This document shows positions 50,544-52,723 of a DNA stretch of 64,000 bases, piece after piece; within the stretch, counting starts at the first letter, position 1; each line of letters opens with the position of its first letter. The notes beneath the pieces were generated by a model. It saw only the letters and a program-made list of their open reading frames with translations. It did no database searches and was not told where the DNA came from. Source of the stretch: Haloferax marinisediminis. GTDB taxonomy: Archaea > Halobacteriota > Halobacteria > Halobacteriales > Haloferacaceae. The stretch covers positions 1,736,001 to 1,800,000 of the forward strand of contig NZ_WKJP01000001.1 of the NCBI RefSeq assembly GCF_009674585.1, read 5' to 3'. A program made the position numbers and the translations under genes.

Positions 50544-50663
50544 AGGTCGAGGTAACCGAGGAGCGGATAAAAATGGCGTGATGCCGGGTAACCGTTCGAA
50601 CCGCTCACCCCCAGACGGTTCCGGGACCGGTCCGCCTATGTTCGTGTGGACCAACCGACGGGT

Positions 50664-51803
50664 ATGCGAACCGTCGATGCGGCAGGACTCAAAATCGGCG
50701 ACGACCACCCGCCCCGAATCATGGGCGTGCTGAACGTCTCCAAGGAGTCGCCGTACAAGCCGAGCGTGTTCAACGACCCGAGTGAGGCCGCCGAATACGT
50801 CGACCGCGAACTCATCGACGAGGGCGCCGACATCGTCGATATCGGCCTCGAATCGGCGAACAAACGGCTCGACGTTCTCTCGGCCGAAGACGAACTCGAA
50901 CGCCTCGACACGGCGCTTTCGGTCCTCGACCACGTCTCTGGCGACGCTGTGTTCTCCATCGAGACGCGGTACCACGAAGTCGCAGATGCTGCGCTCGCCA
51001 ACGGATTCGACATGGTGAACGACATCTGCGGGTTCGCCGACCCGAAGATGCCCGACGTCTGCGAGGAACACGACGCCGCCGTCGCCAAGATGGCGAGCCC
51101 GCCAGACCTCACTCGCCCCGGTGCAATCGAGGAAGTCGACGACATCTACGACGCACTCGAACTCAACGGCTTCACCGACAAGACCATCGTCGACCCGGCG
51201 TTCGGTGGGTGGTCGGAGGCGAAGACGCTCGAACACGACCGAGAGACGTTCGACCGTCTCCGCGAGTTCCGCGGCTACGGCTACCCCATCCTCGTCTCCA
51301 TCAACCGGAAGAACTTCCTCCGCGACGTGGCCGGTCGGTCGACCGAAGATGCCCTCCCCGTGAGTCTCGCAGCAACCTCGATGGCCGTCGAACGCGGCGC
51401 CCACATCATCCGAACCCACGACGTGAAAGAGACGCGTGATGCCGCACTCATCGGCCACGAGTTCGCGCGTCGACGCGTCCGCGAACCCGGAGACGTGTCG
51501 GTCGAAGAACTCGACGTGACGACCACGGGAGACGCGGCGCGACACCTCGACCGAATCGGAGCACCACGGGACGTCGCCACCGAGAGTGTCACGCGCGTCT
51601 TCGAACTCGAAGGACTCGGAGACGACGACAGAGAGATACTCACTGCTGCTGCGGCAGACGCAGGTGCCATCTTCGCTGGTGGCGACTCCGGTGGGCTCCT
51701 CGTTGGGACGCCCGCCGCACTTGGCCACATTTCTGACATCACCAGAGATGGTTCAGATGCCCTCGAAGGGGCGTTAGCGACCATCGAGCGCTCAGTCCAG
51801 TAG
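50664..51803 (+). CDS. folP: Dihydropteroate synthase-like protein
   Basis: 379 aa. DHPS core with IMGVLNVSKESPYKPSVF, NDICGFADPKMP, VDPAFGGW and the C-terminal SLAATSMAVERGAHIIRTHD. The pABA loop reads DIGLESANKR instead of the bacterial GGESTRP pattern, and about 100 extra residues follow the core. It should join pABA (or an analogue) to the pterin diphosphate made by MptE, encoded 240 bp downstream. ATG 50664 is preferred over 50646. Confidence 0.85.
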   Translation: MRTVDAAGLKIGDDHPPRIMGVLNVSKESPYKPSVFNDPSEAAEYVDRELIDEGADIVDIGLESANKRLDVLSAEDELERLDTALSVLDHVSGDAVFSIETRYHEVADAALANGFDMVNDICGFADPKMPDVCEEHDAAVAKMASPPDLTRPGAIEEVDDIYDALELNGFTDKTIVDPAFGGWSEAKTLEHDRETFDRLREFRGYGYPILVSINRKNFLRDVAGRSTEDALPVSLAATSMAVERGAHIIRTHDVKETRDAALIGHEFARRRVREPGDVSVEELDVTTTGDAARHLDRIGAPRDVATESVTRVFELEGLGDDDREILTAAAADAGAIFAGGDSGGLLVGTPAALGHISDITRDGSDALEGALATIERSVQ

Positions 51804-51922
51804 TCAGGGACGAAACTACGCGACTGAAACGACCTCATCGCCCGTGAAGCGGCTAGTTGGGTACCCAAACCCGTCGTGTCGTCTGACGTTCGGCAGACGC
51901 TGACCGTTCGACTAAGAGAAAA

Positions 51923-51932
51923 CTTATACCAT
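51923..51932 (+). promoter_or_regulatory. TATA element upstream of the mptE leader
   Basis: CTTATACCAT, centred about 26 bp before the expected start of a structured RNA near 51950. The distance to the mptE ATG at 52046 is about 120 bp, far more than for leaderless genes in this window. Confidence 0.5.
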
Positions 51933-51950
51933 CCGACTCTAAAACGGTCC

Positions 51951-52027
51951 TGTGGACGCCGGAAGGGCACGCGGGTAGGGGTACACGAGTGCCATTCCGG
52001 CCCATACAGTTACACTCCTGAGCCACA
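51951..52027 (+). ncRNA. Structured RNA or 5' leader upstream of mptE
   Basis: Expected transcription start near 51950. A 12-bp stem interrupted by one mismatch (51958-51970 with 51989-52001) has an 18-nt loop. TGTGG (51951-51955) can pair with CCACA (52023-52027), closing the structure. An ACA triplet at 52025-52027 fits an H/ACA guide tail, but the hairpin's 5' pocket arm is only 2 nt, so an H/ACA identity is not secured. It could equally be a long mptE leader. Confidence 0.4.
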
Positions 52028-52045
52028 GCAATCTGAGTGACAGCT

Positions 52046-52723
52046 ATGCGATTTACCGAGTGGGAACCCGTCTACACACAGATTCTCGACAGCTTTGGGT
52101 TCGACCGCGCGGGCGACGAGGCCGCCCGGGACGTCCTCGCGTCGCTCGTCACGCCGTTCGACCGCTCGCGCCTCGCGTGGGACGGCCAGACAGTCGCAAT
52201 CTGTGGTGCAGCCCCGTCGCTCGCTGACGAACTCTCTCTCCTCGACGACGCCGACGTGGTCGTCGCCGCTTCGACGGCCGCAGACGTCGTCCGCGACGCA
52301 GGCTACGACCTCGATATGATGGTGACCGACCTGGACAAGAACCCCGAGACAGCGGTCGAACTGACTGCGTCGGGAATCCCCGTCGCCGCGGCGGCGCACG
52401 GTGACAACGTCCCTGCGATTCGGGAGTGGGTTCCGCAGTTCGAAAGCGAACACGTCCTCGGGACCACGCAGGCGGCCCCTGTCGGCCCAGTGGTCAACTG
52501 GGGTGGATTCACCGACGGTGACCGAGCGGCGTTCATCGCAGACGAACTCGGCGCAGAGAGCCTCGTCTTCGTCGGATGGGACTTCGACGACCCCGCAGTC
52601 GACGAGATGAAAGCGCACAAACTCGCGTGGGCGGAGCGTCTCGTTCGGTGGCTCGAACAGCGCCGAAACGAAGAGTACGCGATTCTCGATGGGCGGCGAG
52701 ACGACATCGAACCGCTTCCCTAG
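52046..52723 (+). CDS. mptE: 6-hydroxymethyl-7,8-dihydropterin diphosphokinase (MptE)
   Basis: 225 aa, archaeal DUF115-type MptE. Signatures: AICGAAPSLADELSLLDDADVVVAAS, then MVTDLDKNP and LVFVGWDFDDPAVDEMKAHKLAWAE. It puts a diphosphate on 6-hydroxymethyl-dihydropterin, the substrate of DHPS (folP lies just upstream on the same strand). Starts MRFTEWEPVYTQILDSF at 52046. Has a long structured leader, unlike most neighbours. Confidence 0.92.
   Translation: MRFTEWEPVYTQILDSFGFDRAGDEAARDVLASLVTPFDRSRLAWDGQTVAICGAAPSLADELSLLDDADVVVAASTAADVVRDAGYDLDMMVTDLDKNPETAVELTASGIPVAAAAHGDNVPAIREWVPQFESEHVLGTTQAAPVGPVVNWGGFTDGDRAAFIADELGAESLVFVGWDFDDPAVDEMKAHKLAWAERLVRWLEQRRNEEYAILDGRRDDIEPLP

Follow-up and report, generated by a model that had tools for sequence, protein, structure and literature searches.

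The window, which is the whole stretch of 64,000 nucleotides analysed and belongs to the Haloferax-like genome G000, contains a stretch (51923-52045) flanked by a dihydropteroate synthase-like gene (50646-51803) and by the start codon of mptE at 52046. The name mptE is that of the first-pass annotation, and the NCBIfam models give no match to 52046-52723. The following features are located here:

51913-51930, plus strand: promoter of the putative small RNA (BRE and TATA box, TAAGAGAAAACTTATACC), near-invariant in 84 distinct haloarchaeal sequences
51951-51954, plus strand: predicted transcription start at the hairpin base, 28-31 nt 3' of the TATA box
51953-52004, plus strand: conserved hairpin of the putative small RNA, with covariation; covariance model match at 51950-52005
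51973-51984, plus strand: invariant apical loop GGGUAGGGGUAC, the proposed seed, near-unchanged in haloarchaea, common to independent RNA genes with other stems and complementary to the 5' ends of the csg-family and gltX mRNAs
52008-52015, plus strand: position of a TATA-like box possibly serving mptE elsewhere, weak in Haloferax (CAGTTACA), with a presumed role there
52046-52723, plus strand: mptE-like gene, adjoining the small RNA in almost all haloarchaea

In the 84 distinct haloarchaeal sequences, the promoter columns hold a mean of 1.42 bits, compared with 0.26 upstream. The upstream element TAAGAGAAARCTTATRCC is near-invariant, and the distance from the TATA box to the loop is 49-50 nt in 94 of 100. 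Owing to this fixed spacing of BRE/TATA and loop, the start is placed at the hairpin base, in agreement with the first-pass annotation, which had named a TATA-like box (CTTATA, present at 51923-51928) and a start near 51950.

From its base, the hairpin opens with the UGG/CCA pairs and a bulge of 2 nt; two stems, of 7 bp and then 5 bp, follow with a G/A mismatch between them, and the apical region measures 18 nt. The 12-bp stem with one mismatch described earlier is recovered (51958-51970 with 51989-52001, the mismatch being G/A), with the comparison among genomes as the decisive evidence. Conservation does not extend to the closing helix TGTGG/CCACA (51951-51955 with 52023-52027) that had been drawn around it; relatives instead share closing pairs between UGG (51953-51955) and CCA (52002-52004). 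A GUA/UAC mini-stem within the apical loop is left out of the model: covariation does not support it, and one variant locus (L100) breaks the pairing.

Conservation and covariation of the hairpin

A DNA match is found in 131 of the 148 genomes of the family and 25 of its 28 genera, with a core at 51952-52010. The same hairpin exists at the mptE loci of Natrialbaceae, Haloarcula, Halorientalis, Halorussus and Haloquadratum, which were fetched by mptE. Of 391 haloarchaeal genomes, all of which have mptE, the covariance model detects the RNA in 324, almost always as a single copy; where the mptE upstream region of Halobacterium-family genomes without a model match was inspected, the hairpin is present in most. 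An additional copy of the mptE type, on the minus strand of G020:C2 (L164), carries its own AAGCTTATACC promoter and does not adjoin mptE.

The folding energy of the hairpin by itself is unremarkable (z -1.8); it is the comparison across genomes that decides that the hairpin at 51953-52004 is real. The covariation in other haloarchaea, proposed in the first-pass annotation as a check, is observed. In a structure-guided alignment of 71 distinct sequences, which was thus fitted to the structure, both partners change in 12 of the 15 pairs, and 95.3% of the cells are paired, compared with at most 47.6% when the pairing is slid. Double changes occupy 135 cells, against 45.5 after shuffling, and the covariation exceeds that of all 500 shuffles. 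In an unfitted alignment of 20 sequences, both-sided changes are found in 8 of the 15 pairs, and 96.3% are paired. The RNAalifold structure on a MAFFT alignment, in which the upper stem is misaligned, was discarded in favor of the structure-guided alignment.

Copies of the loop and complementary sites in mRNA leaders

The loop sequence was searched across the family, and 40 further places were then inspected. The matches outnumber those of the reversed control, and the loop recurs in RNA genes with unrelated stems, with promoters such as ACACAAGACTTTTA and often with T-run ends (L166, L167, L189, L192, L198-L201, L203, L204, L206, L207, L209 and L212-L214). Two genomes in which the model finds no mptE-linked copy (G224 and G365) contain several loop matches each (L168, L175-L179), mostly in a short hairpin CCUCGGGUAGGGGUACACGAGG with a TATA-like box upstream; in G365, the mptE upstream sequence itself shows that the linked copy is absent. 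Since the same loop is carried by unrelated stems at unlinked loci, the part that is kept is the loop, rather than the stem or the neighborhood of mptE. The promoters of the independent copies resemble that of csg itself (ACACAA/CACAAAG plus TTTATA/TTTTA), a resemblance of sequence that would fit co-expression with the target.

The second RNA gene of the Halobellus type (L166, L167, L203, L204, L206, L207, L209, L212-L214) combines the ACACAAGACTTTTA promoter, a long hairpin with the same loop and a terminator-like GGACATTTTTCG. Another version (L189, L192, L198, L199) is situated beside an aldo/keto reductase-like gene (MLQNESDTFDIGGELTVHRLG...) on the opposite strand. The loop-sense matches L184 (YPYP of LeuRS), L187 and L188 are regarded as chance coding sequence.

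On the opposite strand, matches occur right after promoters: GTACCCCTACCC is located at the predicted 5' end of gltX, encoding glutamyl-tRNA synthetase (L190, L191, L216, L217, L219), and also at that of S-layer glycoprotein genes (L169, L205, L208). Leaders were gathered by protein search (gltX and the csg-like N-terminus), independently of the motif except at the loci found first, and the targets were examined in Haloferacaceae and one other family, mainly in one family. In most Haloferacaceae, the csg-family (S-layer glycoprotein) mRNAs carry the loop complement GUACCCCU(A/G)C(C/U)C where the mRNA is predicted to begin, about 28 nt downstream of the TATA box. The csg-family site is present in 55 of 65 loci, which amount to about 48 distinct genes once repeat fetches are dropped, and always about 28 nt after TATA. 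In gltX, the site, with A or G in the middle, exists in roughly half of the leaders read and is absent from the other half.

With duplicates included, the 9-nt core of the csg site is CCCCTACCC in 45 cases, CCCCTACCT in 3, CCCCTGCCC, CCCCTACTC and CCCCTATCC in 2 each, and CCCCTACCA in 1. The variants CCCCTACTC, CCCCTACCT, CCCCTATCC and CCCCTGCCC can still pair via G-U, and CCCCTACCA does not keep the pairing. Beyond the pairing site, the csg leaders (e.g., L251, L262, L272) are conserved as CCCCTACCCATGGTGGCA...GAGTATC, and a further element may exist in the remainder of the S-layer leader. In the gltX leaders (e.g., L225, L230, L233), a conserved AATCCGGGCCTGTTTTTA block precedes the gltX start by about 30 nt and may be a second promoter or another element.

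In G000, the pattern GTACCCCTRCYC gives six matches and its reversed control none. One match is the RNA itself. Three fall in csg-family leaders, namely those of csg (GTACCCCTACTC), of a second csg-like gene and of a near-copy of the latter on contig C3 (both GTACCCCTGCCC); the fifth lies at gltX (GTACCCCTGCCCGCG, with an unbroken run of 15 pairs that includes one G-U), and one other remains. This sixth GTACCCCTGCTC match (L289, G000:C4:267290) has no evident start or leader context and is probably due to chance. The two S-layer-like leaders (L284 at C1:1357671 and L288 at C3:16487) are near-identical on the two contigs, and on C3 the gene seems to be frameshifted or truncated. The exact 10-nt complement TACCCCTACC finds no target in G000, since wobble changes are present in the Haloferax sites, which the degenerate pattern does match. 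The duplex energy of the gltX site (-28.4) is not reached by any non-self 60-nt segment among the 4264 of the window, and that of the csg site (-23.8) is equalled or bettered by 9 of the 4264, two of them self-antisense, which places it in the top 0.3%.

Loop and site are also lost together. In three genomes (G001, G029, G008), the loop occurs nowhere on either strand, and none of the five csg and gltX upstream regions fetched from them contains the site; these three genomes belong to two genera and represent few independent events. In G011, the loop reads GGAUAGGGG and the csg site CCCCUAUCC, a G-C to A-U exchange across the two molecules and the single compensatory pair found; gltX and the second csg-like gene of G011 have no site. 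The Salinibaculum loop is GGGCAGGGGAAG, with no compensated target found in a genome whose csg leader and 5' end were not identified. Variant loops are observed as AGGUAGGGG (L048, and L317 in G090), GGACAGGGG (L091) and GGGCAGGGGAAG (L100).

Alternative readings of the locus

The RNA is located on the same strand just upstream of mptE in all 100 loci examined, even in Haloarcula, where folP is not upstream, and this linkage, taken alone, would fit a cis-acting leader (riboswitch-like or an attenuator), with the hairpin as the mptE 5' UTR controlling mptE expression. Such a leader would also suit the four genomes in which mptE directly follows folP and the linked RNA is absent, as well as Halorussus, in which a gap of only 14-16 nt to the mptE start codon leaves no room for a second promoter; read-through into mptE is possible, above all in this genus. 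However, the gap ranges from 14 to 306 nt, and a second, separate TATA-like box intervenes between the RNA and mptE in many lineages, the aligned position in Haloarcula and Halorientalis, some 30 nt upstream of the mptE ATG, reading TTTATC/TTTATATA. Furthermore, hairpins with this loop are not confined to the region upstream of a regulated gene, occurring also as isolated genes with unrelated stems, and the loop has complements in other mRNAs, so that a cis-acting leader is unlikely. Where the first-pass annotation had left a choice between a small RNA and a long mptE leader, the own promoter, the covariation and the independent copies thus speak for the small RNA, and the leader half of the proposal mostly falls away. 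An untranscribed element, either a conserved promoter or a regulatory palindrome in the DNA, would account for the strong promoter within the region, but hardly for stem covariation around a loop of 17-20 nt, for the constant spacing from a promoter suited to transcribing the hairpin or for the T-run terminators after the sister copies, and is very improbable.

An H/ACA pseudouridine guide (sR-h45 or a relative) is suggested by the stem-loop, the ACA near it in Haloferax and 6 nt (AGUUAC) complementary to 23S helix 69. Guides of this kind need a pocket, a K-turn and an ANA box (PMC4652768, PMC2584109), the ANA (ACA) box being placed 14-16 nt 3' of the closing pair of the upper stem (PMC4652768). 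The hairpin was compared with this model by its pocket, with rRNA antisense elements of 5-8 and 5-6 nt, and by a K-turn or K-loop with tandem G-A pairs. Neither AGUUAC nor the ACA near 52026, to which the first-pass annotation had pointed, is conserved in relatives; instead of a 5-8 nt pocket, the conserved stem is interrupted by no more than a bulge of 2 nt and a single mismatch; the K-turn is absent, and GGGUAGGGGUAC contains no G-A tandem. The complementarity of the loop to the rRNA operon is no better than that of shuffles, no Rfam family reaches its gathering score for the hairpin region, and the sR-h45 pattern is not found within the window. On these features, a guide is rejected as extremely improbable, and the earlier doubt about a simple H/ACA guide is borne out; the known Haloferax guide (HP1/HP2; PMC2584109, PMC4652768) is likewise a stem-loop small RNA, with the pocket, K-turn, ACA and rRNA complement that are lacking here. 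A fixed loop on variable stems is also typical of protein-binding or sponge RNAs, and the loop might be the recognition site of an RNA-binding protein (a sponge or scaffold), the csg and gltX elements having another role. In favor of this, and against a base-pairing sRNA, the csg block extends past the pairing region (AUGGUGGCA), an extension that loop pairing leaves unexplained. Nevertheless, the exact 12-nt complement at predicted 5' ends of two gene families across genera, the site changes that preserve pairing, the compensatory change and the joint loss all argue for pairing, and the protein-site explanation is improbable.

Proposed function and comparison with known RNAs

The feature is probably a small non-coding RNA gene with its own strong promoter, whose apical loop would pair in trans with the 5' ends of the S-layer and gltX mRNAs. 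The conserved promoter here, and the promoters and frequent T-runs of the unlinked copies, predict an independent transcription unit. The support, all drawn from sequence, comprises the conservation and covariation of the RNA, its promoter, the loop on unrelated stems, the sites at predicted target 5' ends, the joint loss and the one compensatory pair. A conserved putative seed complementary to conserved target sites is what would be expected of a trans-acting base-pairing sRNA, and pairing in cells that changes mRNA stability or translation is what we infer.

In the proposed mechanism, the transcript would begin at the base of the hairpin, and GGGUAGGGGUAC would serve as a seed for trans pairing with long-leader mRNAs over their first 10-15 nucleotides. 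The proposed targets are csg and its paralogues, which make up the S-layer glycoprotein family, and also gltX in many genera, Haloferax among them. By occupying the extreme 5' end, the RNA could prevent ribosomes from entering or recruit the decay machinery; such down-regulation of the very abundant S-layer message is preferred, at about even chances, by analogy with bacterial envelope sRNAs. Alternatively, pairing could shield the mRNA 5' end and stabilize the message, which is the main alternative sign and a tentative one.

The bacterial envelope sRNAs RybB, MicA and OmrA/B act in trans through a short conserved seed near the 5' end of the most abundant surface-protein mRNAs. Compared with these, the present RNA is archaeal, its putative seed is the apical loop instead of the 5' end, the pairing would take place at the predicted extreme 5' terminus, and the second target is a tRNA synthetase. 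In Haloferax volcanii, s194, Hts4 and IG1.7 are abundant ribosome-associated intergenic RNAs of 72-97 nt, and s194 is reported to act on cstA (PMC6104027). These are also haloarchaeal intergenic RNAs, compared here by description, as the text gives neither sequence nor locus; judged in this way, Hts4 (72 nt, plus strand; PMC6104027) may be the same RNA. Haloferax sRNA132 is likewise an intergenic trans-acting sRNA, with a different target, a phosphate transporter operon, and its abstract mentions neither class-wide conservation nor a loop seed (PMC6560208). Methanosarcina mazei sRNA162 (PMC3510493) is an archaeal trans sRNA with mRNA targets as well, in another lineage and with other targets. 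In the open-access full-text literature, neither the RNA sequence, the loop as text nor the csg/gltX target pair was found, and a search there for S-layer and sRNA gave nothing relevant.

We consider it likely that this is a class-wide archaeal sRNA family, in which an invariant loop seed directed at the extreme 5' termini of the S-layer and GluRS mRNAs would control surface construction and translation capacity, and in which lineages would repeatedly evolve extra copies with the same loop, new stems and S-layer-type promoters. Few archaeal sRNAs have a conserved, sequence-defined target set, and here a single-copy RNA of nearly all haloarchaea would be linked to their dominant surface protein. 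Haloarchaeal mRNAs are mostly leaderless, and the unusually long csg and gltX leaders would gain a possible purpose. Meanwhile, the design of variable stem and fixed loop may offer a route to finding more members.
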